Shown in pieces: positions 2,516 through 17,725 of a DNA stretch of 34,022 nucleotides (positions within the stretch are counted from its first letter, which is position 1; the number at the start of each line of letters is the position of its first letter). The notes under the pieces are model-generated. The model worked only from the letters and a program-made list of their open reading frames with translations, had not been told where the DNA came from and did not search any database. Made by a program: the position numbers and the translations under genes. Source of the DNA: Balneolaceae bacterium (GTDB lineage Bacteria > Bacteroidota > Rhodothermia > Balneolales > Balneolaceae); assembly GCA_007693745.1 (NCBI GenBank), contig REDA01000034.1:1-34022 (forward strand). The letters run 5' to 3'.

Positions 2516-3589
2516 TCATCGTTTTTCCATGGCCAGCACTTTCTCTTTCCAGTCCATCACTTTGCTGTTTAAACTGAGGATCCAGGAGATCGCAATGAAG
2601 GCTGTCATTAAGGCGAGTATCATAAATGTGAAACTTGTGAGTGAGCCAATGGTAATACTCAGTGCGATCAGTATTGCGGAGACGAAGATGACCAGAAGTG
2701 TTGCGGAGCGATGCTTGATGCCAAGCTGAAGAACGAGATGGTGGAAGTGGGTCCGGTCGGCCCGAAACGGACTAAAGCCGTCTTTCGCTCTGCGCCGGTA
2801 GACACGAAGTGAATCAAGAACAGGAAGAGCCAGTACACCGATTACGACCGGAAATACCAGCCGGATCTCGGATGTTCCCTGAGCAGCCTGAATAAGGCTG
2901 ATGGCTGAAAGCACCATGATCAGACCGATAAAGAGGGATCCGGCATCACCCATAAACACTTTTACCTTGCTGCTGAAATTGAATCGCATGAACCCGACCA
3001 GTGCACCAATAAGCGCCAGAAAGAGATTCAGCAGCATAAACTGACCGGTGATATATGCCATCCATCCAAAGAGGGTACATGCAACAATGGCGAGTCCGGC
3101 AGCAAGACCGTCAATTCCGTCCATCAGGTTGAATGCATTCACCACACCGGTTATGACGATCAGTGTAATGAAATACTGCGCGAGAACCGGAATTTCATAA
3201 ATTCCCAGGATGCCGTGGAAGGTCTCAATTCGTATACCATTGGCAAATGCAAAATAAGCCAGTGCAATCTGAATGGTGAGTTTCATGGATGCGCGGAGAT
3301 CGGATTTATCATCAATTACACCGATTACCAGTAAGATACCACCGGCAAGGAGAATGAAGGAAATGCCGGAAAATTCACTCCAGGAAGTAGTGCTTACAAG
3401 CAGTGTAAGCATAGTGGCAAAGCTGATGGCCAGTCCGCCCGCAAGCGGTATCTGTCCGTTATGGGCTTTGCGCCCACTGGGTTTGTCAACCAGCTGCAGT
3501 TGGATAGCCACAATTCTGAGAAGCGGCATTATCGTGAGTACAATGGCCAGTGAAATGGCCGGGATTATGATGAGATTGAGGGCGGACAT
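2516..3589 (-). CDS. WecA/TagO/MraY-family polyprenyl-phosphate sugar-1-phosphate transferase
   Basis: An integral membrane enzyme of about 357 residues that starts a glycan by moving a sugar-1-phosphate (usually GlcNAc-1-P or a relative) from a UDP-sugar onto undecaprenyl phosphate. The family landmarks appear in order: GVIDDKSDL (the Asp-Asp Mg-binding motif), NAFNLMDGIDGLAAG, FMGDAGSLFIG, and RADRTHFHH, the histidine motif of the WecA/TagO branch. About ten hydrophobic helices are spread through the sequence. The length fits the family. I chose the ATG at 3587-3589, 12 bp after the preceding stop; a TTG three codons upstream would also work. No WbaP/WcaJ-type initiating transferase is seen in the cluster, so this is the likely priming enzyme for the exopolysaccharide repeat unit. 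It is the last biosynthetic gene before the regulatory pair. The exact sugar cannot be told. Confidence 0.9.
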   Translation of the reverse strand: MSALNLIIIPAISLAIVLTIMPLLRIVAIQLQLVDKPSGRKAHNGQIPLAGGLAISFATMLTLLVSTTSWSEFSGISFILLAGGILLVIGVIDDKSDLRASMKLTIQIALAYFAFANGIRIETFHGILGIYEIPVLAQYFITLIVITGVVNAFNLMDGIDGLAAGLAIVACTLFGWMAYITGQFMLLNLFLALIGALVGFMRFNFSSKVKVFMGDAGSLFIGLIMVLSAISLIQAAQGTSEIRLVFPVVIGVLALPVLDSLRVYRRRAKDGFSPFRADRTHFHHLVLQLGIKHRSATLLVIFVSAILIALSITIGSLTSFTFMILALMTAFIAISWILSLNSKVMDWKEKVLAMEKR

Positions 3590-3601
3590 AAGTTTCAATA
3601 A

Positions 3602-4810
3602 TTATCGTTGTGTGTAGAATCCTTCGGTGTATTTGATGTGTGAAAGTCCCATGTCGAGTAACTGATCGTAGGACAACTCTTCAACGGATGCAGCCACTTT
3701 CGGTTTTTTACTCAGTTGCAGAGCTTCCTGAACCAGACCGTCATACTTGCCTGCAATGAGGCTCCAACGGTATCGGCGTCTTGCGATTTCACCCATGGTT
3801 CTGCCCAAATCCCTGATAGAGCTAAGCTTTGTATTTTGTATGATGGCCTTTAGCTCCGCCTCATTGTGAAAATAGAGGGCCTTGTTCTCGGTTGTAACGC
3901 GATTGTAGGATACACCAAATGCGAGCACCGGCAGATTCAGATACATGGCTTCAACCAGGGAGGGGTTTGTGCCTCCGGCAGAATGGCCGTGGATATACAA
4001 GACTGCTTTTGATCGGATCAGGTCGAGTTTTTCCTGATCATAAATGGGGTCAAGAATGGTGATATTGGGGTATGGGCTGTAGGCAGCCTTCAGGTTTTGA
4101 CCGTACGGACTCTTGTCCCAGTTCCCTACCATGACAAGACGGTATTCCGGCATTTCCGAAAAGGCCTTGAGTACGATGTGCACATTATTTTCCGGTTCAA
4201 TGCGACATACTTTAAACGCATAGGGGTGTGCCATGAATGGCAATCCGGGATGTGTGGTCTCTTTTTTCGACGGCAGGGTATGATCAGCACCATATTCAAT
4301 AATCCGGCTTAAGGTATTGTAACGCTGCGCCGTGTAATCCTGAATCGCTTCATTGTCGGAGATATCTATGTGGGAATATTTCACAGCCAGACCCTCCGCC
4401 CAGAAAAGGTACCACTGTGCCAGCTTATTCCATTTATTTCGTTTCCATTCGATTCCGTCGATAGAGATGATGATCCTCTTATTTGTGAAAAGTTTAACGA
4501 AGGGAAGCAGCCAGGCCCCGGAAACCCCGAGAATAAGCAGTACATCAGCAAAAAAGAGGGCATGCAGGATTGACCAGGTATCATAGGGGATACTTTGCAC
4601 ACCATTGGCATCCAGCGGTAAATAGTGCAACCTGGCATTTTTATAGGTCTCTTTGCGTTCCTCTTTGGAATACTTTTTACCGGAGCAGTATACATGCATG
4701 GAATACTTGTCTCCAATTTGTTCTATCAGGTGTTCAGCCAGTGTTTCAAATCCACCATAATTCGCCGGAACACCAACGGTTCCAATAATTGCGACTGACT
4801 TCTTCTTCAT
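3602..4810 (-). CDS. DUF1972-type GT4 glycosyltransferase (rhamnosyltransferase-like)
   Basis: A 402-residue cytoplasmic GT-B glycosyltransferase. The N-terminus has the DUF1972 signature (IIGTVGVPANYGGFETLAEH, residues 8-27). The C-terminal donor lobe has HGHSAGGTNPSLVEAMYLN, the EX-type donor-binding region typical of this subgroup. Characterised relatives with this N-terminal domain (WchF/Cps2T-like) are rhamnosyltransferases that add an early sugar of a capsule repeat, but the donor here is not proven. It is preceded by an unusually long gap (4811-5120) with a sigma-54-type promoter, so its expression may be separately boosted from the rest of the operon. The following WecA-like gene is 12 bp downstream, so the priming enzyme and probably an early glycosyltransferase would be induced together. 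Confidence 0.85.
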   Translation of the reverse strand: MKKKSVAIIGTVGVPANYGGFETLAEHLIEQIGDKYSMHVYCSGKKYSKEERKETYKNARLHYLPLDANGVQSIPYDTWSILHALFFADVLLILGVSGAWLLPFVKLFTNKRIIISIDGIEWKRNKWNKLAQWYLFWAEGLAVKYSHIDISDNEAIQDYTAQRYNTLSRIIEYGADHTLPSKKETTHPGLPFMAHPYAFKVCRIEPENNVHIVLKAFSEMPEYRLVMVGNWDKSPYGQNLKAAYSPYPNITILDPIYDQEKLDLIRSKAVLYIHGHSAGGTNPSLVEAMYLNLPVLAFGVSYNRVTTENKALYFHNEAELKAIIQNTKLSSIRDLGRTMGEIARRRYRWSLIAGKYDGLVQEALQLSKKPKVAASVEELSYDQLLDMGLSHIKYTEGFYTQR

Positions 4811-4854: not shown

Positions 4855-4871
4855 TGCAACCCTTATGCCAA
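4855..4871 (-). promoter_or_regulatory. Sigma-54 (-24/-12) promoter before the DUF1972 glycosyltransferase
   Basis: Read on the minus strand, the element is TTGGCATAAGGGTTGCA. Against the consensus YTGGCACGrNNNTTGCW it keeps TTGGCA, the purine and TTGCA with exact GG-GC spacing; only the C and G after TGGCA differ. The predicted transcription start is near 4844, leaving a leader of about 34 nt before the ATG at 4810. A TTCCA-N5-TGGAA palindrome is centred about 89 bp upstream of that start, a usual distance for a bEBP enhancer site. The match is seen in the sequence; its activity is inference. Confidence 0.65.
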
Positions 4872-4891: not shown

Positions 4892-5134
4892 TCAGTTATT
4901 TACGGCTTTTTTAAAATCCTGAGATTTCCAGAAATTGGAATGGGTTTCCTGTGTCGGGAGAAGTGATTCCAGATAGAATACCGATCCGTTGACCGGCATG
5001 TGATCTGTGGTTGCTTTGAGGATGCCGGTAAACTCAAAAAAATTACGGGCCGATCGCAGGATGACAGATTTTACAGGGGAATAGCTTCGCAAAGTGAATC
5101 GGTTAGAGAACTGGCAGAGCTTATCCGGTACCAT
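4892..5134 (-). CDS. Small open frame of 80 codons, doubtful
   Basis: The ATG at 5132-5134 overlaps the last codons of the upstream glycosyltransferase (stop at 5121) by 14 bases, as would fit translational coupling in this tightly packed operon. I do not recognise the predicted 80-residue product. It has no signal peptide, no clear membrane helix and no known motif. Its 3' part overlaps the palindrome at 4926-4940, which belongs to the sigma-54 promoter region of the next gene. It may be a real small protein, the remnant of a deleted gene, or a chance frame in a regulatory spacer. The last two seem at least as likely as the first. Confidence 0.3.
   Translation of the reverse strand: MVPDKLCQFSNRFTLRSYSPVKSVILRSARNFFEFTGILKATTDHMPVNGSVFYLESLLPTQETHSNFWKSQDFKKAVNN
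4926..4940. promoter_or_regulatory. TTCCA-N5-TGGAA palindrome, candidate enhancer site
   Basis: The sequence TTCCA-GAAAT-TGGAA has perfect 5-bp arms around a 5-bp AT-rich spacer. The same arms and spacing occur at 17711-17725, and both lie upstream of a -24/-12 promoter. The centre is about 64 bp from the -24 element at 4855-4871. It is a candidate binding site for the Fis-type helix-turn-helix of the activator encoded at 989-2338; that assignment is inference. Confidence 0.5.
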
Positions 5135-6203
5135 GCAGAATTTTTAAGCTGCTATCAATAAACGCTTTTTCACGAAATTCCCTGAGTTTGACAGTTGCAT
5201 TTGCACTTAACTGTTGGTACAGCTGAGAATTTAGAAATAAACTCTGTACCGTTTTTTCGAGTGTGTCAATATTGAGCGGGTCTGCATGATAACCGTTAAA
5301 ACCGTGTTCAACAACTTCGGTTATTCCGCCAACGGGAGGTACGATAGCAGGCATCCCGAAGGCCATGCCCTCAATAATGGTGAGCCCGAACGTTTCAACC
5401 CATCCATCGGGATGGGAGAGATTCATGATCAGGTCGGCCCAGGCGAAGTGTGGTATCACATCCCGCTGTGTGGGATAAATCTCCAGATTACCGGGGAGGT
5501 CAGTTCCCTTAAAGAATGCTTCAATCTCTTCAGTGGGTGCATTGATCACCATTCTGAAACGGAACTCTTTGAGCCGTTTAGCCACTTTTGTGAATTCGTG
5601 AAGGCCTTTATAGATTTTCAGTGAGCAGACCATGAGTACATTTTGGGGCATCGTGATATCACGCGTAATCCTGCCTGCACGGTTTATAAACTCTTCCGGA
5701 ATTGCATTGTGCAGTACATGGGTTTTTATACCCTGCATGGGCTCTTTATCTGCAAGAAATTCTGATACATAAATCACCTCGTTTGCGGTGAATTTTACAA
5801 TGCCAAACAGAACTTTTTTCAGAATGGCCGGCTTCATGGTTGTCTCATGAAGGTGATAGATTATCCGGCAGCCTTTCAGTTTTCCAAGAAGTGCTGCACC
5901 AAACGGCAGCACTGTATTGACATAGATAATGTCTTCTTTTTTTACAAGGGTTAGAAATCCTGGAATCAGAAGCAATTGACTCAACATCAGCGCAGCGAAC
6001 CTGAGTAATTTGTTCTCATAGAATCGATACCAGACCGGATGTCGGGTTATCCATGGTGAGAGCCCCGATAAAATCCCCTGATTTTGAAAGCTGCTGCACA
6101 CATGCACGTCAATACCGTTTTCATCCCAGCCTTTAATAAGTTGACTTAGCACTTTGGGACTTCCGCTGAAATCATTCAGTAAGTGAAACGCATAGATTTT
6201 CAT
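5121..6203 (-). CDS. GT4 family glycosyltransferase
   Basis: A 360-residue retaining GT-B transferase. The acceptor lobe begins MKIYAFHLLNDFSGSPKVLS and contains IIYVNTVLPFGAALLGKL and YHLHET. The donor lobe has the GT4 EX7E pattern in ETFGLTIIEGMAFGMPAIVP, followed by GGITEVVEHGFNGY. The middle hydrophobic stretch (around LLIPGFLTL) may help it lie at the membrane. It starts 12 bp after the upstream glycosyltransferase stop, inside a short tandem repeat, and has no Shine-Dalgarno sequence. It probably adds one sugar of the lipid-linked repeat unit on the cytoplasmic face. Donor and linkage cannot be told from sequence alone. Confidence 0.88.
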   Translation of the reverse strand: MKIYAFHLLNDFSGSPKVLSQLIKGWDENGIDVHVCSSFQNQGILSGLSPWITRHPVWYRFYENKLLRFAALMLSQLLLIPGFLTLVKKEDIIYVNTVLPFGAALLGKLKGCRIIYHLHETTMKPAILKKVLFGIVKFTANEVIYVSEFLADKEPMQGIKTHVLHNAIPEEFINRAGRITRDITMPQNVLMVCSLKIYKGLHEFTKVAKRLKEFRFRMVINAPTEEIEAFFKGTDLPGNLEIYPTQRDVIPHFAWADLIMNLSHPDGWVETFGLTIIEGMAFGMPAIVPPVGGITEVVEHGFNGYHADPLNIDTLEKTVQSLFLNSQLYQQLSANATVKLREFREKAFIDSSLKILHGTG

Positions 6204-6224
6204 AGGTTCATAGGTTCAAAGGTT
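6201..6224. repeat. Tandem 8-bp repeat (three copies) at a gene junction
   Basis: The plus strand reads CATAGGTT, CATAGGTT, CAAAGGTT in a row. On the coding strand it runs through the TGA stop (6216-6218) of one glycosyltransferase and ends in the ATG (6201-6203) of the next. Unit number therefore sets the stop-to-start distance. The middle copy also offers an ATG that meets a stop after two further codons. Confidence 0.7.
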
Positions 6225-7436
6225 AGCGTAGATTGATTTCAGTTGTTCACCTCGTCGGTCCCAATGGAAATAATCCATAAAGTGTTTGCGCGCTGCTTTT
6301 CGCTTCTTCTGTATCAGCGAAGGGTTTTGATAGAGAGTGCCAATACTTCCGGCCAGTTGCTGTACAGTATCTTCATAACTACCTCTTTTTACTGCGATAC
6401 CACATTCCGGTGTAATGAATCCGCCGGGGCCTTCATTATCAAGTGTGATCACCGGAACCCCAAAAGAGAGTGCCTCAGGAACCACCATTCCGGCTCCTTC
6501 ATGAGATGGAAAAAGAAAGGCGGAAGCAGTACGAAACAGTTTCATCACATCGCTGCGGTCAATCCAGCTGATAAAAGTTACGCAGTCTGAAATTCCTTCA
6601 TCTTCGGTTATTTTTTTGAGAAACGCCTCTTCAGGTCCGCTCCCAATGATCTTCAGATGGACGCCGGCTCTCTCAGGCGCGGGTAAACTTTTTACAAACA
6701 ATGCAAATGATCGGATGGTGAGATCAAATCCTTTCAAGGGAACCAGCCTGCCAACCGACATCAGTGAAAAGGAACCGGTTTCTGCTTGTTCATCCCAGCC
6801 AAAATCCTGGGTAGCCACGGATGCGGAGATAATATGCTCGTTTTGGCCGATGTCAATCACGTCTTTAACGGAGGGATTCATCGCCCAGATATACCCGGCT
6901 CTTTTTACTGTATTTTGCAAAGCCCCGGAAAAATTCCAGAACAGTTTCTTGATCAGCCAGGTAAGGCGATCTTTGATCAGATATTTTTTTGAGTATGGCT
7001 CCAGATAGGCAGAGGGTATGAGAGGATGATGCCCGATGGGGCCCCATACAAATGGTTTCTCAAGCTTCCATAAATGACTGGGTGACCAGTCATTATGAAA
7101 GTTGAGGTTATGTACGATATCAAAGTCGATATTTTTCTCCCGAATGAAGGATACGACCATTCGTTGCCAAAGAAGATAATAGAGCATTGCACCCCGCCCG
7201 CCTTTTTTCCAGAAGCGTGTCCAGTATGGGGTGTCGAAATAGAGGAACGTGATATTTTTGTAATGGTCTGAAGGATTATCCTGCATGTACGTTTCGATAT
7301 GCGGACGATTGTTTTCTCTCGTAACGGCAATCACCTTATTAAAGCGAGAGATCTGCATCACAAAATTCCATCCCATTCCGTCTTCAGAACCTTTCAGAGG
7401 GTTGATTGCATACGCTGTGGCAAGAATGGTTTTCAT
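6216..7436 (-). CDS. GT4 family glycosyltransferase
   Basis: A 406-residue GT-B glycosyltransferase. The N-terminal lobe starts MKTILATAYAINPLKGSEDG, a glycine-rich acceptor loop common in GT4 enzymes, and contains HNLNFHNDW and FVWGPIGHHP. The C-terminal lobe shows FSLMSVGRLVPLKGFDLTIR (the start of the donor domain), then SHEGAGMVVPEALSFGVPVI with the EX7E residues. Its start overlaps the stop of the acyltransferase gene in an ATGA arrangement, which implies translational coupling. It lacks membrane segments and probably works at the inner membrane on the lipid-linked glycan. The sugar specificity is not visible. Confidence 0.88.
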   Translation of the reverse strand: MKTILATAYAINPLKGSEDGMGWNFVMQISRFNKVIAVTRENNRPHIETYMQDNPSDHYKNITFLYFDTPYWTRFWKKGGRGAMLYYLLWQRMVVSFIREKNIDFDIVHNLNFHNDWSPSHLWKLEKPFVWGPIGHHPLIPSAYLEPYSKKYLIKDRLTWLIKKLFWNFSGALQNTVKRAGYIWAMNPSVKDVIDIGQNEHIISASVATQDFGWDEQAETGSFSLMSVGRLVPLKGFDLTIRSFALFVKSLPAPERAGVHLKIIGSGPEEAFLKKITEDEGISDCVTFISWIDRSDVMKLFRTASAFLFPSHEGAGMVVPEALSFGVPVITLDNEGPGGFITPECGIAVKRGSYEDTVQQLAGSIGTLYQNPSLIQKKRKAARKHFMDYFHWDRRGEQLKSIYANL

Positions 7437-8131
7437 ACTGTTGAGAACCGGTTTTTTATCTGTTTCGCCGGAACGCCCCCGATGATGCTGTTTGCCGGAA
7501 ACGATTTAGTTACGACCGCACCGGCTGCAATAACGGATCCATCCCCCACATGTACACCGTCGAGTATGGTTACCTTACTGCCAATCCAGCAGTTGCTGCC
7601 GATGTGAATTCCTTTTCGGTTTACACCCTGCATACGGATCGGAAGCTCCGCACTTTCATAATTGTGGTTTTCCGGGTGACAACTGAAATATTGCCCAATG
7701 ATGCAATCATCCCCGATTTCAAGGCCTCCGGCGCCACCAAGATACGCGTATTCGCCGATGCCGACGTTGTTTCCGATGCGGATATGCGTGCCAATTTGAT
7801 TCAGGGATGTGGATACAATCACCCGACTGTAAGCGCCGATCCCGACATTGTCGCCAATCGATATTCCTTCACTTCCGAGCGCACTCAGGAAGACCCGGTC
7901 ACCAAGCTTCATGAATCGGCCAAACCTGATTTTAGCGAAGTTAAAGAAGCTCACATGTTTGCCAAGCATTGTCATCCGCGGATTGCGAAAACGAAGCAGC
8001 AGCTTCCACCCGCGAAACAGGCTTCTTGACTGAGCCCACAGAAAGCTGATGAGCGCACCGCTGTTTAGGTTTTCATCAAACCGAAACTGCGGATTCCGAA
8101 GTCGGATGATCGTTTCTGCAATCTTTTTCAT
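7433..8131 (-). CDS. Left-handed beta-helix acyltransferase (hexapeptide repeat)
   Basis: A 232-residue protein with a helical N-terminus and then a run of hexapeptide repeats (GISIGDNVGIGAYSRVIVS, IRIGNNVGIGEYAYL, GLEIGDDCIIGQYFSCHPEN, IHIGSNCWIGSKVTILDGV, VHVGDGSVIAAGAVV) ending in the usual GVPAKQIKNRF cap. The His in SCHPENHNYE is in the place of the catalytic His of the WcaF/NodL/LacA-like O-acetyltransferases. It probably adds acetyl groups, from acetyl-CoA, to a sugar of the repeat unit or to a nucleotide-sugar precursor. It follows the fusion kinase gene with a single base between stop and start and overlaps the next glycosyltransferase by 4 bp, so it is embedded in the operon. The family is certain; the substrate is not. 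Confidence 0.9.
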   Translation of the reverse strand: MKKIAETIIRLRNPQFRFDENLNSGALISFLWAQSRSLFRGWKLLLRFRNPRMTMLGKHVSFFNFAKIRFGRFMKLGDRVFLSALGSEGISIGDNVGIGAYSRVIVSTSLNQIGTHIRIGNNVGIGEYAYLGGAGGLEIGDDCIIGQYFSCHPENHNYESAELPIRMQGVNRKGIHIGSNCWIGSKVTILDGVHVGDGSVIAAGAVVTKSFPANSIIGGVPAKQIKNRFSTV

Positions 8132-8132
8132 T

Positions 8133-10541
8133 TCAGGCTGCCCTTTTTTGAGTGGTATTCATAATCGTAAGAATGGTGGCATCAAGATCGATATTTAAAA
8201 CGGGCAGATATTTACCTGCAGAGGGCCTGCCGGAATCCAGTTTTCTGAATAGATCGATGTACTTGCTGGTCAGTTCAGTGATCGTTTCTTTGTCCAGTTC
8301 CTGCTTCCTCGCCAGGATGGTGGCAGCATCGGCATAGAGAAAGAAGTTGAAGTCCGGTTTCATCAGGAAGAGGTATCCGGCCCGAAGGAGTGTTTCGGGC
8401 AGATGGATGTTACTTCGAACACTGTCGTTGATAAAGTCGAAATAGTAGCGATCATACAGCACAACATCCCCGCGGAGCACATGCCGGAAATAGACAACAA
8501 ACTGACCGGCAAGATAATCGGTATAATAGTAGAGAAACCGCAGCAGTGAGCTGATGACGTTCCGATTTGATCCCTGCCGCGGAAGGGTGTTGGCTGCATC
8601 CTGCTCGGCTATTACTTTTCCTTTTGTCCAGGCGCTTAAAATGGGCAGAAGAGAGGGTCGGTGCCTTAATATGACTACCCTCTTTCTCAGCTTTTTGTCA
8701 AATTCCCTGTGAATATGCTCAATGACGGTGGACTTTCCCGCACCATCCACTCCGCTGAATGTGATGATCATTCCTTTGGATCGGAAAAGGCTTTTCAGGA
8801 TGTCGCGCAGATAATGAACACGCTGTATAACTCTGCTCAGTCCTTGATTGACCGATCTGCTTTCAACGCTTTCGAGAAGTTCTCTTCGGGGAATTCTGCC
8901 ATCTGCATTGCCAGTTAAAATGAGCCGGGTTAATGAATCCCCGGTAGTGTTGACTGAGGTGAGATACATTGCCTGTTTATCCGGGATCAGGGATCCGTTC
9001 AGCCCATAGAAGAGTCCGAGATAGTGAACCAGATCAGACGGGTGCATCGTTTTTATCCCGTAGCGATTTCGCTGCGATCGATGCAGTACCCCTTCGGCCG
9101 ACATCATCTCCAGATGTTTCCATTTGAACTGCCAGATAAGATCGAGATTCAGAATGTCATTATTTTTGAGTTGAATCTGAACAGAGGCCATAAAGGAGCT
9201 TCTTTTCACCAGCACTTTGTCAGCCAGAGTATGTCTTTTCAGGTATTCGATCAGCTGCCCGGCCGTTTCCTTTTTCAGACAGAGATCGATATCCGAGTAG
9301 GCATCCAGTTCGGAGGGTTCCTTCTCCGGAAACTTGATTGCCGAGTAGGGTTTGTTGTTCAGTTTGCAAAAGAGATCCTCAATCAGCAGACCTCTCGCTT
9401 CCCTGTTATCGGAGAGTATTTCTGAAAGTGCCTCATTCCAGGTGTCCAGGAGCCAGTCTATCTGTTTATGCCACTTCTCCTGACGGCTGTAGAGATACAG
9501 ATGATTACTGATGTTCATGAAGAGGTAAAATTTCAGGCATAAACTCCAGCTAACACCATATTTCTCACTCAGGGAATGTCCCCATTTACCGGTGAGTATG
9601 TCTATCTCATTGCGGATCTCTTTCCAGGATTTATGATCAATCAGTACTCCCTTTTGTATGATAAAATGGAAGGCATCAAATCCCAGAGGGGTGGAGTCAT
9701 CCGCCAGTTCCCAGTCATATACGGCAAGTTTCCCGTCGGTGATGAACATATTCCACGGGGTGAAGTCGCCATGACTCATTGTGAAAACCATCTTCGATTT
9801 TGCCAGTTCGGAACCGAGCTGTGACAGGCGGTTAATGAGGGCGCGCGGGATCCGTTCATCCCGGGTGGCCTTTGCACTGCCGAGCCGTTTCAGGCTCTTA
9901 TTGAAGCCAGGGCTTTCTGAGGTTTCAAGCTTTACTGCGGTCTTTGTGCAGATCTCAGTTAGCATGGACTTGTGCAGGCCGGAAAAAATATTGGACCGGG
10001 TACCGCTGCTCCCTGCATCTTCCAGTTCGAGGATGCCATTTTCGTAAAGAGTGGCAGCCGGAATCGTAACATGTTCAGGATTTAGGGAACGAATACCGGA
10101 GGTACCTGAAAATTCACGTTCCACAGTTTCGCATGCTTCGCCGGTAACCGGAATTTTCAAAAAACGGGATCCATTTTCAGATTCAGTATAAAGAACCATT
10201 TTGTTATTTGGTCCTGGTGTTCCCGTGAAAAGAGCCCATGTATCTGTGATCAGATCTGTTCGGGGAGTTTCATCTCCTTTTGGGCGGGTTATGAACAGAT
10301 GGTTCTTTTGATAGACGAAATGCTGCAGTCTCAAATGAAAAACTATTGAAGAGACGAGAGCAAATAGTTTTGAGCGCCATCCTTCCACATGGTAGAATTT
10401 TAAAAAAAGTGGTGAATCTGCATGAACAGGAAAGATCCAGCGGGGCGATCCGTCTGGATTTACGATGGTGTAATACTCCAGTTTTTCCCCTTCATCAGAA
10501 GTTGCTGTTGAGTAATTGAGTTTATTTAAAAAAGATTTCAT
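8133..10541 (-). CDS. Three-domain fusion: APH-type kinase, nucleotidyltransferase-like and thymidylate-kinase-like domains
   Basis: An 802-residue protein of unknown function with three nucleotide-using folds. Residues about 110-385 resemble an aminoglycoside/choline phosphotransferase: Lys129 in RFLKIPVTG, the HGDFTPWNMF loop (His257, Asp259, Asn264), and YDWE with Asp276. Residues about 405-580 look like a pol-beta-type nucleotidyltransferase, with YSDIDLCL (Asp417, Asp419) and a later acid in LNLDLIW (Asp467). Residues 594-802 form a P-loop domain close to thymidylate kinase: FSGVDGAGKST, then VVLYDRYYFDF, the DR motif of that family. I chose the ATG at 10539-10541, one base after the wzy stop; the TTG four codons upstream is unlikely. 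Its place between wzy and the acyltransferase suggests a phosphate or nucleotide modification of the polysaccharide or its precursor. Which of the three domains is active is unknown. Confidence 0.85.
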   Translation of the reverse strand: MKSFLNKLNYSTATSDEGEKLEYYTIVNPDGSPRWIFPVHADSPLFLKFYHVEGWRSKLFALVSSIVFHLRLQHFVYQKNHLFITRPKGDETPRTDLITDTWALFTGTPGPNNKMVLYTESENGSRFLKIPVTGEACETVEREFSGTSGIRSLNPEHVTIPAATLYENGILELEDAGSSGTRSNIFSGLHKSMLTEICTKTAVKLETSESPGFNKSLKRLGSAKATRDERIPRALINRLSQLGSELAKSKMVFTMSHGDFTPWNMFITDGKLAVYDWELADDSTPLGFDAFHFIIQKGVLIDHKSWKEIRNEIDILTGKWGHSLSEKYGVSWSLCLKFYLFMNISNHLYLYSRQEKWHKQIDWLLDTWNEALSEILSDNREARGLLIEDLFCKLNNKPYSAIKFPEKEPSELDAYSDIDLCLKKETAGQLIEYLKRHTLADKVLVKRSSFMASVQIQLKNNDILNLDLIWQFKWKHLEMMSAEGVLHRSQRNRYGIKTMHPSDLVHYLGLFYGLNGSLIPDKQAMYLTSVNTTGDSLTRLILTGNADGRIPRRELLESVESRSVNQGLSRVIQRVHYLRDILKSLFRSKGMIITFSGVDGAGKSTVIEHIHREFDKKLRKRVVILRHRPSLLPILSAWTKGKVIAEQDAANTLPRQGSNRNVISSLLRFLYYYTDYLAGQFVVYFRHVLRGDVVLYDRYYFDFINDSVRSNIHLPETLLRAGYLFLMKPDFNFFLYADAATILARKQELDKETITELTSKYIDLFRKLDSGRPSAGKYLPVLNIDLDATILTIMNTTQKRAA

Positions 10542-10542
10542 A

Positions 10543-11844
10543 TCAGGCTTCAAGCAGGTCAGGTCTTTTAATTTTCAGATGAAGTTTTTGTGCGGTTGTA
10601 AGCAGTGTACTTCGTTTAAATGTGATGTAAAGCAGGATCAACTGATAAAAGAGAATGCCAAAGTTGGATTCGCCGAAAATGCCAAACTCGGTAAAGGAGT
10701 TGATCATGATGGGAATCATGATGCTTAGCAGCATCATTTTTTTCTCTTCTTCTTCCCGGAAGATTCCTCTGAAGGTGAAAATCATCTGGAAGCTCACAAT
10801 TACAAGACCCACAAAGCCGAGGTTCATCAGAACCTGAATGAAGGTGTTGTGAGTCATTAAACCGGGGTAACTGTGTCTCGACTGAAAGTGGTCGTTGTAG
10901 TCGATCCGCATGAAACCAAATCCGAGCCAGGGTTCACGCGGAAGCCCCTCATTGATCAGTCCCTGCCAAAAGGGAAGCCGGCCGGTCATGCTTAGAACTT
11001 CCTCAACCCGGTCAGCATCCCCGTCTTTCAAAATAACCGAGTGTACGACTAAAGGCAGGAAAAGGAGCATGGAACCGATGATGGCCAGCTTCAGGTGTAT
11101 ATTATCCGTTTGTTTGATGTAGTAGAGAATAATGAAAACGGCACCAATCAGAGAGGAACGGGACCCGGTAAGGTAGAGAGCGTAGAAAAGGATGATAATT
11201 TTTAAAATGGTAAGCCACTTATGATGATTTCGCTTCACATCAAATAGAAAGCCGGCAACTCCAACTCCGGCCAGCATACCGAGTTCGTTGGGATTCATGA
11301 TAAAACCTCCCAGACGGGCCTCTGTACCTCCATGTGTAAAGCGGATAAAATCATCGGGGTTTAACCACATTCCGATCAGAAATATGAGAATGATTGCAAG
11401 GATTGAGTTACCCAGTATGTTGTAGAGCCGGATGGTGTGCCCCGGGAAGTATTCATCCAGCAGATAGAGACTTTTAATGAAGAAGAAACAGAAGATGAGA
11501 GTCTGAGAAGTCATGAACCATTGCAAGGCGCTTACGCCGAGATCGGATGTCCACAGAAATGATGCAAGCCCGAGCCCCAGGTAGCCGAGGTAGAGCCCGA
11601 TAGCCAGAGTATTGTGTGGTTTCAGGGAGTCGATCGCACCATAGTTTACGATCTTGACGTATACCAGCCAGGAAGCGCCGAGCATTCCCATCCGTCCGAT
11701 CACTTTGATAACCCTGGTAATGGTGATGTTCTCACTCCAGGAAAAAAAAGCCGCAATCATCATAAACATGATGGCGATCAACATCCAGTTGATGGTTTTC
11801 AGAAATTGAGAATGATCGGTAACATCTTGTCGGGTTCTGTTCAT
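10543..11844 (-). CDS. wzy: Wzy-type polysaccharide polymerase / O-antigen ligase family
   Basis: A polytopic inner-membrane protein of about 433 residues with roughly ten to twelve hydrophobic helices. It has the family's usual landmarks: a short segment ending in GGFIMNPNELGMLAGVGV, then LYLTGSRSSLIGAVFIILYY, a larger periplasmic loop with a WLGFGF and HNTFIQVLMNLGFVG pattern, and a cluster of helices at the end. Proteins of this type (PF04932) join lipid-linked repeat units in the periplasm. I place the start at the ATG 11842-11844, which lies 4 bp after the preceding stop; a TTG 11 codons upstream is in frame. Since wzx, wza and a wzc-like gene are in the same operon, a polymerase is more likely than a ligase. 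Confidence 0.85.
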   Translation of the reverse strand: MNRTRQDVTDHSQFLKTINWMLIAIMFMMIAAFFSWSENITITRVIKVIGRMGMLGASWLVYVKIVNYGAIDSLKPHNTLAIGLYLGYLGLGLASFLWTSDLGVSALQWFMTSQTLIFCFFFIKSLYLLDEYFPGHTIRLYNILGNSILAIILIFLIGMWLNPDDFIRFTHGGTEARLGGFIMNPNELGMLAGVGVAGFLFDVKRNHHKWLTILKIIILFYALYLTGSRSSLIGAVFIILYYIKQTDNIHLKLAIIGSMLLFLPLVVHSVILKDGDADRVEEVLSMTGRLPFWQGLINEGLPREPWLGFGFMRIDYNDHFQSRHSYPGLMTHNTFIQVLMNLGFVGLVIVSFQMIFTFRGIFREEEEKKMMLLSIMIPIMINSFTEFGIFGESNFGILFYQLILLYITFKRSTLLTTAQKLHLKIKRPDLLEA

Positions 11845-11848
11845 CTGA

Positions 11849-12952
11849 TCAATGGTACATTTCGTCAAATTTATCAATCAACCGATCCCATCCGAACTCT
11901 TCAGATACCATCCGTGCGGCATTTTTTGAAATTTGTTTCATAGTATCTCTATCGGCATTCCTGAATTCAGTGAAGGCTTTGGTTAAGTCTTCTGCAGAGT
12001 TATTTACAAGCGCCGTGCCAGCTTTATACCGGCTCACAGACTGCGCAACGTTTGTAGCCTTTGAGACAATGACCGGGATGCCCAACCCAGCCGCTTCAAG
12101 AACGGATGCGGGGAGGCCTTCATTTCTTGAAGGATGAGCAAAAACATGCATTTGAGAAATTAATTCATCCTTTTCACTCCCGAATTTGCTCCCGTAAAAA
12201 ACCACATTCCGCACCTTGTTCTTTGTGATAAGGTTTTCCAGATCAGATCTGTCCGGACCATCGCCCACAATCCATAAAGTGGATTGTGGTTCCATTTTAT
12301 GGAATTCCTGGAATGCATGAATCAGGAGGTCCAGTCCTTTTGTCCAGCTAGTTAAGCGGCCTACAAAGCCAATTGTAAAACTGTCAGGATTAGGTATGAC
12401 TGGAAAAGCAGCTTTCTGAAGCTGAAAACCATAAGGCAGGAGTACGTTTTTATCATTTTGATAGATCAGGCTAAGACCCTCAACTTCGCTCTGCCCGATA
12501 CTGTGAATCTTGCAGGCCCGTTTGAGCAGTGTTTTTTCGAACAGCCGGAAATAGGCTTTTTTGAGCCATTTGCTTCGGTTCATGGCGATGGTATTATATG
12601 CGCCATGACCTGTAATGACAAACCGGATATGGAGCTTTTGGAACAGACCTGAGAGTGTGGTGTAGACTGGAATCCACCCGCCGTGCAGGTGGAAAACGAC
12701 ATTGCTGCCGGCTTTATTCCGGATGGCGTTACGTAAGAGGGAGTGTACGCCAAAAGGGTTTTTGGAAGCCGGGAACAGGAGTGTTTCAAACACTCTCTCT
12801 TCAAAATTTCGGGAAAGATCGTTGGTGATTCCCCAAACCGCAACATCCCTTCCCTGTCGCTGTTGATGAGTGGCAAGCTGAGAAACCACCTTGTTTACGC
12901 CATTCATGCGTTCCGGATTGGCTTTGCCAAGTATGAGATGAATTATTTCCAT
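11849..12952 (-). CDS. GT4 family glycosyltransferase
   Basis: A 367-residue GT-B transferase. The acceptor lobe contains VVFHLHGGWIPVYTTLSGLF and FVITGHGAYNT. The donor lobe opens with FTIGFVGRLTSWTKGLDLLI and carries SRNEGLPASVLEAAGLGIPV with the EX7E acids. Its ATG lies inside the end of the wzx gene (10-bp overlap), and its stop is 4 bp before the wzy start, so it is part of the transport/polymerisation core of the operon. It should add one sugar to the undecaprenyl-linked repeat unit. Donor unknown. Confidence 0.88.
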   Translation of the reverse strand: MEIIHLILGKANPERMNGVNKVVSQLATHQQRQGRDVAVWGITNDLSRNFEERVFETLLFPASKNPFGVHSLLRNAIRNKAGSNVVFHLHGGWIPVYTTLSGLFQKLHIRFVITGHGAYNTIAMNRSKWLKKAYFRLFEKTLLKRACKIHSIGQSEVEGLSLIYQNDKNVLLPYGFQLQKAAFPVIPNPDSFTIGFVGRLTSWTKGLDLLIHAFQEFHKMEPQSTLWIVGDGPDRSDLENLITKNKVRNVVFYGSKFGSEKDELISQMHVFAHPSRNEGLPASVLEAAGLGIPVIVSKATNVAQSVSRYKAGTALVNNSAEDLTKAFTEFRNADRDTMKQISKNAARMVSEEFGWDRLIDKFDEMYH

Positions 12953-14178
12953 AGCAGAAAGTGCTTTTTTTGAAGTTCTGATTGCCAGTAGATCAGTAAA
13001 ATGAGTTGAGAGAAAATGAGTCCGGCGATTGCTCCTGTGAGCTGAAAAAAAGAGAGCAGCAGATAAGAGCTCAGCAGCCCAAAAAGGAAGGTTAGCAGAT
13101 ATCCTTTAAAGAAAATTTTATTCATCACCAGTGCCCGAATGGCAATTCGAATTGGATACCCTGTAAAAATAAGCGCGTAAAGCAGTGCCATTCCTTTCAC
13201 GAGAAAGCCGTATTCCCGAAACTGTTCACCGCCGGCCAGAACAATGATGAAATCTGAGAAGATGAACAGAATGAGTAAAAGCAATGAGACGGCAAAAAGA
13301 GATTGCCCTCCAATCTTCCAGAGAAACCGGCGCCCTTCATCCATAGACTTGTGCAGGCGGCTGGCTGTTTGGGGAAGTACATAGTTTTCAAAAGTCTGGA
13401 ACAGTACGTTCAGCACGCCAAAAACGGATTGTACAAGTCGCAGTGCTCCAAGTGCTGCGGCTCCCAGAAAAAAACCGGATGCTACAACAAAGAGATTTCC
13501 GCCCCACCACTGAACCAGTGCTGTATAAAAGAGCCATTTACCTTCGTTCAGATGAAGTTTCAGGAAGCCGGGCCAGTGTTCAATACCGCTCCAGGTTGGT
13601 TTTGAAAAGATCAACCCGGTCAGAAAGGAGGGCAGATAGCCCAGTGCGAGCAGAAAAAGAACCGGAACCAATGAGGCAGAGCCCGCAATGAGGAGATAAC
13701 CGGCTGCGAGAAGATGAGCTGCCATAAGTTGTAAATCCAGCAAGAAAGTATCGGTAACACGGTCTTCGGCCAGAAATCGTTTCCGGTAGTAATCGTGCAT
13801 CACAAACCCGGCTGAGATAAGAATAGCCGGCAAAGCGAGATCTTTGTGCTGTGCGATCAGATCAAAAGGAAGCATCAGTAGCAGAGGTATCCATGTGATG
13901 AGAAAAGTGCTCAATGCCAACTGAAACCAAAAGGTAAATGAGAGATAGTCAATTTTATAAAATGAAGAAGGGAGGTTTACCTGCAGCGGCTGCACGACAA
14001 ATGCACTGATCAGACTGGTGATCAGGTATAAAACAAGTACGAGCCCGGCATATACCCCAAAGTCTTCCAATGAGAGCGTTCTTGCCAGGAGTATCGTTAC
14101 CAGAAAGCTGGTTCCGCTAAACACAGCCTGGTCCAGTAAGATAAGAGGGGCTTTGAAATGATTGAGGAGATTACGCAT
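12943..14178 (-). CDS. wzx: Wzx-type flippase (MATE/MVF superfamily polysaccharide exporter)
   Basis: A 411-residue membrane protein with about twelve hydrophobic helices and very few charged residues between them. The N-terminus (FKAPLILLDQAVFSGTSFLV, then LARTLSLEDFGVYAGLVLVL) shows the usual first two helices of Wzx/RfbX proteins with the conserved GxY-type turn. It is at the short side for the family, which usually has 420-480 residues. It would move the undecaprenyl-linked repeat unit across the inner membrane. The ATG overlaps the stop of the wzc-like gene by 8 bp, and the next glycosyltransferase overlaps its end. Identification rests on topology, local motifs and context. Confidence 0.85.
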   Translation of the reverse strand: MRNLLNHFKAPLILLDQAVFSGTSFLVTILLARTLSLEDFGVYAGLVLVLYLITSLISAFVVQPLQVNLPSSFYKIDYLSFTFWFQLALSTFLITWIPLLLMLPFDLIAQHKDLALPAILISAGFVMHDYYRKRFLAEDRVTDTFLLDLQLMAAHLLAAGYLLIAGSASLVPVLFLLALGYLPSFLTGLIFSKPTWSGIEHWPGFLKLHLNEGKWLFYTALVQWWGGNLFVVASGFFLGAAALGALRLVQSVFGVLNVLFQTFENYVLPQTASRLHKSMDEGRRFLWKIGGQSLFAVSLLLLILFIFSDFIIVLAGGEQFREYGFLVKGMALLYALIFTGYPIRIAIRALVMNKIFFKGYLLTFLFGLLSSYLLLSFFQLTGAIAGLIFSQLILLIYWQSELQKKHFLLWK

Positions 14179-16378
14179 AGGTTAGTCCCTCAAATTTGTT
14201 TTTCTTCAATCCGGCTTTTTTGATGAGCCAGTTCGCAATTTCTGTTACAATGTTTGGATTGTATTGGATTCGGTTTAAAATGAAAAAGATGTTCTCAATG
14301 CTGAATTCATCTTTCAGGATGTCCACACCAGGAATCTGTTTTGCTGGTGTCAGCCGGCTGTCTGCGACAACAAAGTTGGTATCGGATGCTTTCATAATTT
14401 GAAGTGAAAGCTGTGTTTCGATCATGTCGTTGTTGATGATGGTGTTGTCGAAACTTTCGGCCACGCTTTTAATGAGTTCTGCAATTTGATTGTTTGTAAA
14501 AAAATCGTAGCCGGGATGAAGAAAATGAAGAACTGACAGCGTTTCAGTAAGGTGGTGGATCTCTCCCGGTCCGGCAGGGCTCAGTTTCATTCTGTTGCGG
14601 GCGTCTATGAGGAGAACGCGGTGGTTCTGCTGGGAGAGTGCTTCAGCAGTATGAAGAGCGTGAAAATCGGCTCCGTCACCAAGGCCGAAAGCATTGAACA
14701 CGGCGACACTCTTCGGTTTTATCAGGTTCTTAATCTCAAGCTGATTCACAAGGTGTAGAAAATGTGCTTGCAGCTGTTCCTTCTTCTTGAGGTTCGGGGT
14801 TGAGGCCACAACCGCTATTGAAGAATTTGTCTGAATTGTGAACTTATCGTTAACTCTTGCTTTAATCGTATGCACAAGAAAAATAAGTGCGATTGCTCCG
14901 CCCCCGGCAAGCAAGGCAGCTACGATCTTCAGGATTACATAGTTTGGTGAGAATGGTGATTGAGGTACCCGTGCAAAATCGATAATCCGATGGAAGGAGA
15001 TGGTAGCAGCACGGGCTATCTGTGCTTCTATTCTTTTTTCGTTTAGAAAATTGTACGATGCCTGATAGATCTCAAACTCACGTTCCAAAATTGTTAAAAG
15101 CCTCTCTTTTTCCGGATAGTTGATCAGCTGAAGTTCAGTGAGTTCAATATCGCGGGAGAGGTTTTCATACTTGATTTCCAGATTTCTCCGGGTGTTGGAG
15201 ATGCTCTCTGTCAAGTAAGCGTAAATGTCATTCAGTTTCTCATCCACTACCGAAATGATCGGTTCCTGAGGAGTATAAATGAGGAGAAGGTCTCTTTTTT
15301 CGGCCCGAAGTTCCTTTATCTTTTTGATCAGCTCCGTGGATAAAAGATCGGTGAAAGCCTCAAAATTGGGAGCAAGTTCTTCAAATTTTTCATTGCCCTC
15401 CTGCACATAGCGGTAAAGTTCATTCATCGCTTCAAGGCTCATGAAGAGATTCGTCTGCTGAATCTTCATCTGAGAGATCTCTCTCAGAATTGTTTCTGAC
15501 TCCTGCCGAATATTTGTGATCTGTTCAGCATTTCTGTAAGCCTCTATCTCCAGCTCAATCTGTGAAAGCTTCTGCATCACCTCCTTCACCTGTTCATCCA
15601 GAAAATCCATGGTTACGCTCGCAGCCCCTGATTTGGTTGAAATGTAATCCTCGATATAGGTTTTGGCCAGCATGTCCGGTAACACGGCTGCCTTTTGTGG
15701 GTGTGGAGAGGCGAAAATTAAACGGATCACTGCAACGTCCCTGTCAACCGGCAGAATGGAAAGATTGCTCTGAATCTGTGAGATGAGTTGAGGCCTGCTC
15801 AGTTTCTTGAACTGATAGTGATCGGCAATATCTGTATTGTTACGTGAATTTACATAGGGTTCGTTTAAGGAGAGAATGAGTTTGGTTCCTGAAAGATCGA
15901 GCGTATCGCCCAGAGACGCCCGGAACTCTTTTCCCCCGGGTTCGATGAGTGTGTAAGAGAGGTTGTCACGAAGATGTAAGTGAAACGGTCTGTTGTAATG
16001 AGAATTATCCGCAGTGAGAAATTGAACAGTAAACGGGGAGTCATGATAAAGTTCTGTTGTTCGCATTTTGCCAACACGAAACTTTTCAATATCAAAGTCA
16101 AGATGATTCAGGGCTTCATCGATCAGCATCTGAGATTTCAGCACTTCCACTTCAGCAGCGAGTTTATTGGCAGTCGCAAAGACATCAAAATCTTTATAAA
16201 GATTACTGTTGGGCACACCTTCATCGATATCTGCAAGGCGTAAACGAGTCACGCTCTCATATTTCGGAGTTACATAATTGAGGTATTGAGCCATGATCAG
16301 ATAACCGACAATCATCGATACAGCGATCAGCGGCAGGCCTCTCAGATAGGGTTTTAATATGCGCAGGCTCTCTTCCAT
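14171..16378 (-). CDS. Wzc-like polysaccharide co-polymerase with degenerate BY-kinase domain
   Basis: A 735-residue inner-membrane protein. It has one membrane helix at about residues 14-34, a large periplasmic Wzz/GNVR region with coiled coils (about residues 250-450), a second helix near 480-505, and a cytoplasmic ATPase-like domain to the end. In active BY-kinases a Walker A lysine follows EG; here the equivalent place reads GLGDGADF (about 565-572), with no lysine or serine/threonine. Walker A' is partly kept (VLLIDARN), Walker B is lost (DNTIINND), and there is no C-terminal tyrosine cluster. It therefore probably shapes polymer length and couples to the Wza-like exporter without autophosphorylating. 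It starts 11 bp after the wza-like gene. I saw no separate BY-kinase or Wzb-type phosphatase in the window. Confidence 0.88.
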   Translation of the reverse strand: MEESLRILKPYLRGLPLIAVSMIVGYLIMAQYLNYVTPKYESVTRLRLADIDEGVPNSNLYKDFDVFATANKLAAEVEVLKSQMLIDEALNHLDFDIEKFRVGKMRTTELYHDSPFTVQFLTADNSHYNRPFHLHLRDNLSYTLIEPGGKEFRASLGDTLDLSGTKLILSLNEPYVNSRNNTDIADHYQFKKLSRPQLISQIQSNLSILPVDRDVAVIRLIFASPHPQKAAVLPDMLAKTYIEDYISTKSGAASVTMDFLDEQVKEVMQKLSQIELEIEAYRNAEQITNIRQESETILREISQMKIQQTNLFMSLEAMNELYRYVQEGNEKFEELAPNFEAFTDLLSTELIKKIKELRAEKRDLLLIYTPQEPIISVVDEKLNDIYAYLTESISNTRRNLEIKYENLSRDIELTELQLINYPEKERLLTILEREFEIYQASYNFLNEKRIEAQIARAATISFHRIIDFARVPQSPFSPNYVILKIVAALLAGGGAIALIFLVHTIKARVNDKFTIQTNSSIAVVASTPNLKKKEQLQAHFLHLVNQLEIKNLIKPKSVAVFNAFGLGDGADFHALHTAEALSQQNHRVLLIDARNRMKLSPAGPGEIHHLTETLSVLHFLHPGYDFFTNNQIAELIKSVAESFDNTIINNDMIETQLSLQIMKASDTNFVVADSRLTPAKQIPGVDILKDEFSIENIFFILNRIQYNPNIVTEIANWLIKKAGLKKNKFEGLTYA

Positions 16379-16389: not shown

Positions 16390-17145
16390 TTATAATGCAT
16401 TAAACAAGATGGCAACTGCTGTCGCAACGGATGTAAAGGGAATGATGTTGGAGAGCTGCCGGTCAATTCTTTTGCTGTTTTTTGCGGGTACAATAACGAC
16501 ATCCCCCGGATAGAGAGCGATATTTCGTTTCAGAATGGAATCGGATTGAGTGAGATCAATAGTGGCCATATGCACGTCCGGACCTATTTGTCTGAGTACC
16601 CTTATCCTCTTTGTGTCGGCATAGAACTCAAAGCCGTTGGCCCTGGCAATAACATCGAGAAGTCGGGACTGTTCAGTATCCAGGGTAACAACCTGCGGGT
16701 TGCGCACTTCACCCAGAATGCTGATCTCCTTGTTCATGATTTTAACATCCACTATCGGATTGACGAGATATTCTCCAAAACGGGCAGACAGTGAATCCTT
16801 CAATGAAATGACCGTCATGTGCTCTACATTGACTGTACCAAGACGAGGTATTTCAATGTTTCCGCCGGCATCCACAAGCAGCCACTTTCCATACACTTCA
16901 TTCGAGTTGTAAATACCATAAACCGAACCAACACTCAGTTCATCCTGCTGCCAAACACTGATGCTTACCTTGTCATCCACCTGAATGTGGTACTGGTAAT
17001 CAGGGTTGTTAAGAAAAATATTGTCAAGAGCAGATACAGACGTGTCTGGTTTTCCGCCAGGTTCGGTAAAAAGATTGGTAACGCTGCAGCCCTGAAGAAG
17101 TGCGCCTGCGAGTAAAAAGAAAATAAAGTGATATAATGGTTTCAT
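16390..17145 (-). CDS. Wza-like outer-membrane polysaccharide export lipoprotein
   Basis: A lipoprotein of 251 residues. The signal peptide (MKPLYHFIFFLLAGALLQGC) ends in a clear lipobox with Cys20. A poly_export domain follows (YQYHIQVDDKVSISVWQQDE), then an SLBB-type region (ISILGEVRNPQVVTLDTEQS to LYPGDVVIVPAK). A hydrophobic C-terminus (SVATAVAILFNAL) may be the outer-membrane helix. It is smaller than E. coli Wza (about 380 residues), having one SLBB-type repeat, as is common in Bacteroidota. I place the start at the ATG 17143-17145, 4 bp after the preceding receiver gene. Together with the Wzc-like protein it should form the channel that takes polymer from periplasm to surface. Confidence 0.92.
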   Translation of the reverse strand: MKPLYHFIFFLLAGALLQGCSVTNLFTEPGGKPDTSVSALDNIFLNNPDYQYHIQVDDKVSISVWQQDELSVGSVYGIYNSNEVYGKWLLVDAGGNIEIPRLGTVNVEHMTVISLKDSLSARFGEYLVNPIVDVKIMNKEISILGEVRNPQVVTLDTEQSRLLDVIARANGFEFYADTKRIRVLRQIGPDVHMATIDLTQSDSILKRNIALYPGDVVIVPAKNSKRIDRQLSNIIPFTSVATAVAILFNAL

Positions 17146-17149
17146 ACAA

Positions 17150-17584
17150 TTAAACAAGACTGAAGATGGATTTTAGAATACCCGGTTTGTTGCGGGATTG
17201 CAGTTCCTTTACCTGAGCAATTTTTTCAATTACAGCATTGATTTTCTCACTGTCATTGCCCGACTTCAGGATGTAATCAAACGCTCCATGTTTTAGTGAA
17301 TCTACAGCCGTCTTGATGTCCTCCTGACCTGAAACCATTACTACAAAAATGTCAGGATTCTGACGTTTGATCTTTTTCAGCACTTCATAACCGGAAAAAG
17401 TGTCCATGTTGTGATCCAGGAAAATGATATCCGGCTTCTGATCCAACGCATTGAGGCAGTCGACACCGTTGGTGAAGGTGGATATCTGCTGATATCCGGA
17501 GTTCGTCAGCTTTTTGTGGAGAAGCGAAAGGTAGAAAGGGTCGTCATCGACGAGAAACAGATTGTAAGATGTTTGAATTGTCAT
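17150..17584 (-). CDS. Single-domain response regulator (CheY-like receiver)
   Basis: A 144-residue receiver with no output domain. The acid triad is DDD at 13-15, the phospho-acceptor is Asp57 (IFLDHN), the conserved Ser is in VSGQED, and Lys107 sits in YILKSG. It closely resembles the receiver of the sigma-54 activator at the other end of the operon (both have SGQE, then AV, LK, GA and DYI in the same register), so they may share a phosphodonor. About 25 residues after the receiver are basic and end hydrophobic (KSIFSLV). I chose the ATG at 17582-17584; a TTG 12 codons upstream would fall within the predicted leader. It is the first gene after the sigma-54 promoter and lies 4 bp before the wza-like gene. 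It may set the activity of the export machine or compete for phosphate; this is inference. Confidence 0.9.
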   Translation of the reverse strand: MTIQTSYNLFLVDDDPFYLSLLHKKLTNSGYQQISTFTNGVDCLNALDQKPDIIFLDHNMDTFSGYEVLKKIKRQNPDIFVVMVSGQEDIKTAVDSLKHGAFDYILKSGNDSEKINAVIEKIAQVKELQSRNKPGILKSIFSLV

Positions 17585-17620
17585 AGCTAAATAGATTGAT
17601 TTAGGATTTACCTTATACAA

Positions 17621-17636
17621 TCAATCCATGTGCCAA
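17621..17636 (-). promoter_or_regulatory. Sigma-54 (-24/-12) promoter of the exopolysaccharide operon
   Basis: On the minus strand the sequence reads TTGGCACATGGATTGA. The -24 half is a perfect TTGGCAC and the spacing to the -12 half (TTGAT against TTGCW) is exact; only the C of GC is replaced by A. The predicted transcription start is near 17609, giving a leader of about 25 nt to the first ATG at 17584. Two palindromes lie 78 and 109 bp upstream of that start. The promoter call is based on my reading of the bases and not on a scored search. Confidence 0.62.
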
Positions 17637-17678
17637 CTTTCAAACTCCCAATATTTTCAATATTTTATGGGATTCACT

Positions 17679-17696
17679 CTGGAAAAAATCTTCCAG
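17679..17696. promoter_or_regulatory. CTGGAA-N6-TTCCAG inverted repeat, candidate enhancer site
   Basis: Perfect 6-bp arms flank a 6-bp AT-rich spacer. The centre is about 78 bp upstream of the predicted sigma-54 transcription start, and about 30 bp (three helical turns) from the centre of the next palindrome at 17711-17725. Paired sites in helical phase are typical of NtrC-family enhancers. The half-site TGGAA is shared with the other palindromes, but here the arms are in the opposite order. Confidence 0.45.
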
Positions 17697-17710
17697 AAAT
17701 GATTATTTAA

Positions 17711-17725
17711 TTCCATAATTTGGAA
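17711..17725. promoter_or_regulatory. TTCCA-N5-TGGAA palindrome, candidate enhancer site
   Basis: The sequence TTCCA-TAATT-TGGAA has the same arms and spacing as 4926-4940. It is centred about 109 bp upstream of the predicted start of the exopolysaccharide operon. The shared palindrome beside two independent -24/-12 elements is the main reason to consider it a real site. Confidence 0.5.

Follow-up and report, generated by a model that had tools for sequence, protein, structure and literature searches.

A probable sigma-54-type switch before an exopolysaccharide gene cluster of a Balneolaceae bacterium, with counterparts across much of Bacteroidota

Introduction

Little is known about the control of exopolysaccharide synthesis in Bacteroidota. 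The locus described here, carried on a 34,022-nucleotide contig of a Balneolaceae bacterium (the window, which is the whole stretch analysed), raises the question of what turns on such a polysaccharide cluster. Sigma-54 has been proposed to govern the cell exterior, and exopolysaccharide production under its control is an established theme in other phyla (PMC3162934). In Flavobacterium psychrophilum, a member of the Bacteroidota, -24/-12 promoters (motif SM4) were mapped and the one of remFG-sprCDBF was validated by mutagenesis; these promoters are thus functional in the phylum (PMC9723704). A preliminary description of the window had read the entire Wzx/Wzy locus as one sigma-54-controlled unit. 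As judged from its sequence and that of its relatives, the region before the first polysaccharide gene is very probably a sigma-54-type on/off switch with a docking site for an activator. The features discussed are listed in Table 1.

Table 1. Positions of the polysaccharide genes and candidate control elements in the window
Feature	Position	Strand	Basis or remark
P1 candidate enhancer (UAS) palindrome, TTCCA-AATTA-TGGAA	17711..17725	.	Exact in 26 of 38 orthologs
Proximal partial enhancer site, TAATCATTTCTGGAA	17691..17705	-	TGGAA half alone conserved, invariant in five Balneolia
IHF-like site, TAAAATATTGAAA	17655..17667	-	One mismatch to YAANNNNYTGATW; read from the sequence and the Balneolia alignment
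P1 -24/-12 element, TTGGCAC-ATGGA-TTGA	17621..17636	-	TTGGCAY-N5-TTGA in 7 of 7 Balneolia upstream regions compared
First gene, stand-alone response-regulator receiver, 144 aa	17150..17584	-	Acceptor residues, Asp57 among them, conserved
Outer-membrane polysaccharide export protein (Wza/OPX type)	16390..17157	-	PF02563, SLBB
Wzz/Wzc-like chain-length/copolymerase protein	14171..16378	-	PF02706, PF13807
Probable Wzx-type flippase	12943..14178	-	PF13440 at 20.4 bits, cut-off of 23 not reached; position in conserved cluster
Glycosyltransferase	11849..12952	-	Domain scan
Wzy-type polymerase / O-antigen ligase family	10543..11877	-	PF04932
806-aa protein with phosphotransferase-like (APH) and thymidylate-kinase-like regions	8133..10553	-	Weak matches, below cut-off
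Hexapeptide acyltransferase	7433..8131	-	Domain scan
Glycosyltransferase	6216..7436	-	Domain scan
Glycosyltransferase, end of probable P1 unit	5121..6203	-	Followed by a 310-bp gap
P2 candidate enhancer palindrome, TTCCAATTTCTGGAA	4926..4940	.	Conserved in G004 and G041
P2 -24/-12 element, TTGGCATAAGGGTTGC	4856..4871	-	Predicted +1 near 4845
Glycosyltransferase, first of P2 unit	3602..4810	-	Domain scan
WecA-like undecaprenyl-phosphate sugar-phosphate transferase	2516..3598	-	PF00953
Near-palindrome before activator gene, CTCCAAAATCTGGAC	2433..2447	.	Two mismatches; G004 and G041 have it at the corresponding position
Activator (bEBP): receiver, AAA+ (GAFTGA, Walker A GETGSGKE), C-terminal helix-turn-helix LDIGKSTIYNLL	989..2338	-	
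FIST-domain protein, cut by contig end	1..988	-	Adjoins activator also in G004, G041 and Flavobacterium

Results

The preliminary description had placed TTGGCAC-N5-TTGA about 25 nt before the first codon of the receiver gene, and direct reading of the minus strand located it, as TTGGCACATGGATTGA, at 17636-17621 (P1). The G of its -12 element is at 17622; therefore, the predicted +1 is near 17610 and the leader to the ATG at 17584 measures 26 nt. A TTG at 17620, given as the start of this gene in the list of open reading frames, would overlap P1. The pattern GG at -24, ten bases and G at -12 can be read directly in P1 and in P2, a similar element further into the cluster, and the -12 dinucleotide is GA in the former and GC in the latter. 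The -12 element of P1 reads TTGA and not TTGC, as it does in all seven Balneolia; the C of the -12 GC varies among natural sigma-54 promoters. In the 34-kb window there were one exact match to TGGCAC-N5-TTGA and four with up to one mismatch, compared with 2.7 expected, and four were reached in 25 of 100 shuffles of the window. The -24/-12 match of P1 is therefore not significant by itself and, since it does not rise above the chance level, the case for P1 rests on its relatives.

The candidate enhancer of P1, TTCCAAATTATGGAA at 17725-17711, is centred 108 bp upstream of the predicted +1, and from its start to that of the -24 element there are 89 bp. Its pattern, TTCCA-N5-TGGAA, has five exact copies in the 2.87-Mb genome, three of which are on the 34-kb contig analysed here (binomial P about 1.6e-5). 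Just two of the five are non-coding, and they precede P1 and P2 at 89 and 69 bp. Both copies located off the contig are inside genes, identified by their translations as those of an acetyl-CoA carboxylase subunit and a glycerol-3-phosphate dehydrogenase. The third copy on the contig (12290-12304) lies within a glycosyltransferase gene without a conserved partner and was taken as chance; the TGGCACGGCGCTTGT at 12006 is likewise internal to a coding region and was regarded as a coding coincidence. To our knowledge, TTCCA-N5-TGGAA is not the enhancer word of any characterised activator. Just upstream of the enhancer, the minus strand at 17740-17950 holds a remnant of a receiver-like domain, ending in LQDHYLQKPLSYTRLDEIIQKILR and a stop, that lacks an intact start and may be left over from a kinase gene.

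The first gene has orthologs (73-77% identity) in just four of the 58 related genomes searched, not counting the genome of the window. In the alignment of the five upstream regions the invariant blocks are the TCCA and TGGAA of the first palindrome, a TGGAA half-site two turns downstream of it, the ATTG of the IHF-like site, TTGGCA, and TTGA. A scan of named genomes extended the comparison to loci in Balneolia, Flavobacterium, Chryseobacterium, Spirosoma, Fibrivirga, Hymenobacter, Chitinophaga and others. Those at about 45% identity or above mostly share the order receiver, export protein, Wzz/Wzc, Wzx, glycosyltransferase, Wzy, 806-aa protein and acyltransferase; 20-kb pieces of the closer loci add further glycosyltransferases and the WecA-like gene, with the activator close by. 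By eye, the C-terminal kinase-like part of the Wzz/Wzc-like protein of the window (14171-16378, minus strand) seems to have no Walker A motif.

The comparison covered the upstream regions of 38 orthologs, drawn from Balneolia, Flavobacteriia, Cytophagia and Chitinophagia, and, as a control, those of 25 receiver genes that are more distantly related. The exact palindrome was present in 26 of the 38 (shuffle mean, 0.025), and 34 had it with at most one mismatch (0.55 in shuffles). The best match to the published sigma-54 consensus averaged 8.26 of 12 in the orthologs and 6.64 in shuffled sequences, and the highest of 200 shuffle sets reached 6.95. No exact palindrome occurred in the 25 controls, whose sigma-54 score equalled that of shuffles. 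The IHF consensus, from which the site in the window deviates by one mismatch, was found in 17 of the 38 (1.0 in shuffles). Since these upstream regions are related by descent, the counts are not independent events. GG-N10-G is present in all 33 promoters aligned, in a register that was itself picked by eye under that rule, and the T two bases before the -12 G, which is outside the selection rule, is also invariant in the 33. The base that follows this G among the aligned orthologs is A in 14, C in nine, T in nine and G in one.

Of the 31 promoters used, 29 have a distance of 57-58, 67-69 or 86-89 bp from the start of the palindrome to the start of the -24 element; the other two have 74 and 100 bp. 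The spacing thus changes by whole helical turns of about 10 bp each (P = 0.002 when clades are collapsed). The intervening sequence is free to change while the two elements stay on one face of the helix, which fits an activator that contacts the polymerase by DNA looping. By these comparisons the same predicted arrangement precedes the same gene cluster across much of Bacteroidota. Taken together, the loci contain 62 exact palindromes in 810 kb (about 0.9 expected), a figure to which some duplicate loci contribute. In Flavobacteriia and others (L084-L088 and L095-L111; for example, L097:16999) an additional exact palindrome is located some 110 bp ahead of the gene for the 806-aa protein; in many cases TTGGCA or AGGCACGATTTT comes after it, with a -12 element that is poor. 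A scan of 394 genomes for the motif alone (palindrome plus TTGGCA) barely separated those with the activator (9 of 24) from those without it (79 of 370), and this composite pattern was rejected as a genome-wide finder because it is too permissive and its association with the activator is weak.

The palindrome could instead be the target of another protein, such as a repressor of a housekeeping promoter, in which case sigma-54 would be unused and the -24/-12 look incidental. The Chryseobacterium upstream regions, where the palindrome is perfect and the -24/-12 match is weak (AAGGTAY...TGG), are in agreement with this idea, and the AT-rich housekeeping promoters of Bacteroidota are difficult to exclude by eye. 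Nonetheless, we consider it improbable, since the orthologs match the sigma-54 consensus better than every shuffle, the T before the -12 G is invariant without having been selected, and phasing maintained over 57-89 bp suits a distant activator and not a repressor. No E. coli-type sigma-70 promoter was detected on the minus strand at 17560-18130 either, in a scan confined to that promoter type, to which those of Bacteroidota do not belong.

The preliminary description had seen two TTCCA/TGGAA repeats, 78 and 109 bp upstream of the predicted start and about three helical turns apart, as paired enhancer-like elements of a single sigma-54 unit that would cover the locus. Both repeats do occur in the window: the second, TCTGGAAGATTTTTTCCAGA at 17697-17678, is centred 78 bp upstream of the predicted +1 and about 30 bp from the first. 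However, it is the first repeat that is conserved as a palindrome. From the second, TGGAA-N6-TTCCA, the relatives keep the TGGAA arm, and the right arm is absent from all four aligned Balneolia relatives, for which reason it was rejected as an enhancer. The conserved second element is the half-site, which starts 20 bp (two turns, and not three) downstream of the start of the first palindrome; in another locus, L092, the second site is likewise at exactly 20 bp. TGGAA-N6-TTCCA also scores as a terminator-like hairpin on the plus strand, where the list of open reading frames has no gene ending at it.

The single unit is also at odds with P2, a second sigma-54-like promoter that the sequence places within the cluster. 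Its element starts 69 bp downstream of the start of its palindrome, and both are kept in G004 (element, TTGGCACCGGTATTGC) and G041 (TTGGCATAAGGATTGT). Because this conserved pair at 4856-4940 precedes the last two biosynthesis genes, the cluster probably consists of two units. P1 would drive ten genes that are adjacent or overlapping, from the receiver gene through the glycosyltransferase gene at 5121-6203, and P2 would drive the remaining two. An undivided locus with two full palindromes as enhancers is, in our estimation, even less probable than binding of the palindrome by another protein. As for chance, an AT-rich leader might carry both the palindromes and a sigma-54-like match by accident. 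The lack of significance of the -24/-12 match within the window would fit this view, but the view is contradicted by the orthologs and by the genome-wide distribution of the palindrome and is hardly credible. Beside the polysaccharide locus, at 23668-32634 of the minus strand, the translations show by eye a chemotaxis-type cluster with two methyl-accepting proteins, CheR, CheB, CheW and CheA with a receiver.

A lack of rpoN, which would have refuted the preliminary description, is excluded: the gene is present in the genome (PF04552, E 4.8e-56; C-terminal ARRTVSKYRE box) as well as in the ten relatives tested. The NtrC-family activator proposed to be within the cluster is indeed encoded there (989-2338, minus strand). 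It is intact, and the receiver, AAA+ and helix-turn-helix parts of an NtrC-type bEBP are all present, the last of them with a weak Pfam match (PF12728, below cut-off). The recognition-helix region, GKSTIYNL, hardly varies between Balneolia and Flavobacterium, and the three other activators of the genome differ from it there. In the Crocinitomix-type loci L116 and L128 it is replaced by VGKSTIYRMI, and L116, which has the cluster, is without the palindrome before the receiver gene. Indirectly, the conserved helix and the location of the gene within the cluster suggest this protein as the likely binding partner of the palindrome. HU/IHF-family genes are present too.

Near-palindromes with up to two mismatches also precede activator genes elsewhere, in 9 of 25 (against 2.0), a modest excess that is no more than suggestive of autoregulation, possibly negative, by way of the near-palindrome before the activator gene of the window. 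At 2411-2447 this near-palindrome and a TTGGAA half-site overlap a Bacteroidota-like TTG...TAnnTTTG promoter.

The protein encoded next to the activator has both the FIST_N and FIST_C domains. Its gene also adjoins that of the activator in G004, G041 and Flavobacterium and is thus a conserved neighbour of it. In G004, G017, G041 and G042 the FIST gene is followed by a gene of about 1070 codons, which in G041 encodes a hybrid kinase with the order PAS-GAF-PAS-HisKA-HATPase-receiver-Hpt; in Flavobacterium the activator gene is followed by the FIST gene, a hybrid kinase gene with an Hpt-like end and the receiver/export operon. A FIST gene and an Hpt hybrid kinase also adjoin the activator at L097:5695-9866, L242 and L243.

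The cluster of G041 (L070) was compared with positions 989-17584 of the window. The two genomes share 52% identity in rpoN and 84%, 79% and 87% in the activator, export protein and Wzy, respectively; with G004, of the same genus, the values are 69% for rpoN and 87%, 80% and 84% for the same three proteins. The 79-87% identity of the cluster against 52% for rpoN, together with its patchy presence, suggests horizontal transfer of the whole cluster, promoters included, from one family of the order to another.

Discussion

We consider it highly likely that P1 is a sigma-54 promoter fired by the activator encoded in the cluster from the palindrome and the half-site, and that P2 functions in the same way. 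The FIST protein, together with the Hpt hybrid kinase, would take in the signal and is the likely input of a phosphorelay. Once phosphorylated, the activator would bind TTCCA-N5-TGGAA at 17711-17725, aided by the half-site at 17691-17705, and an IHF/HU-like protein at 17655-17667 would probably bend the intervening DNA. The AAA+ ring would then open the sigma-54 polymerase at P1, and we infer that expression of the receiver and the export/Wzx/Wzy genes depends on rpoN. At P2 (4856-4940) the same activator would turn on the last glycosyltransferase gene and the WecA-like gene, the starter of repeat-unit synthesis. The receiver, which would be made first from P1, could serve as a phosphate sink or as an effector of the export machinery.

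The conserved enhancer, activator and sensor operon constitute a defined, testable switch for a polysaccharide cluster that occurs in Balneolia and as far afield as Flavobacterium, Chryseobacterium and relatives of Spirosoma. Targets in other genomes could be sought by looking for TTCCA-N5-TGGAA at a phased distance from a -24/-12 element, if the search also takes account of the gene context. A far more tentative proposal, which we regard as rather doubtful, is a self-contained and transferable Bacteroidota module. In it a FIST-type sensor, possibly of NO or heme, and an Hpt hybrid kinase would feed a dedicated sigma-54 activator that has an enhancer code to itself and turns on the conserved exopolysaccharide cluster at no fewer than two promoters, the receiver acting as a phosphate competitor that provides feedback.

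Control of exopolysaccharide by sigma-54 is of a known kind, and the present regulon appears to be undescribed: our search, mostly outside subscription journals, found no published description of it or of its enhancer. A survey of sigma-54 regulons published in 2025 is silent on exopolysaccharide (PMC12316311). The systems reviewed earlier have the same type of target genes, and neither "Bacteroid-" nor "Flavobact-" appears in the text of that article (PMC3162934). The published selection of F. psychrophilum promoters includes chaperone, gliding and envelope genes and no such exopolysaccharide cluster (PMC9723704).

P1 shares with the sigma-54/NtrC promoters of glnA, nif and psp the -24/-12 element, the upstream dyad, a candidate IHF-like site in between, an NtrC-type activator and rpoN. 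It differs from them in its TTGA at -12 and in the word of its candidate enhancer. The PrsK/PrsR system of PEP-CTERM/XrtA loci likewise has an NtrC-type response regulator inside an exopolysaccharide cluster. The activator is not PrsR by TIGR02915 because its score, 362.1 bits, is below the cut-off of 502.6, and no exosortase was found among the window proteins scanned. In the NosP-NahK-HptB system of Pseudomonas aeruginosa a FIST-type protein is also found beside a phosphotransfer hybrid kinase, with a link to biofilm (PMC11784011). The resemblance to NosP/NahK is weak (51.7 bits for the Flavobacterium FIST protein against the NosP cut-off of 450), and, unlike in that system, the neighbour of the FIST protein here is a sigma-54 activator.
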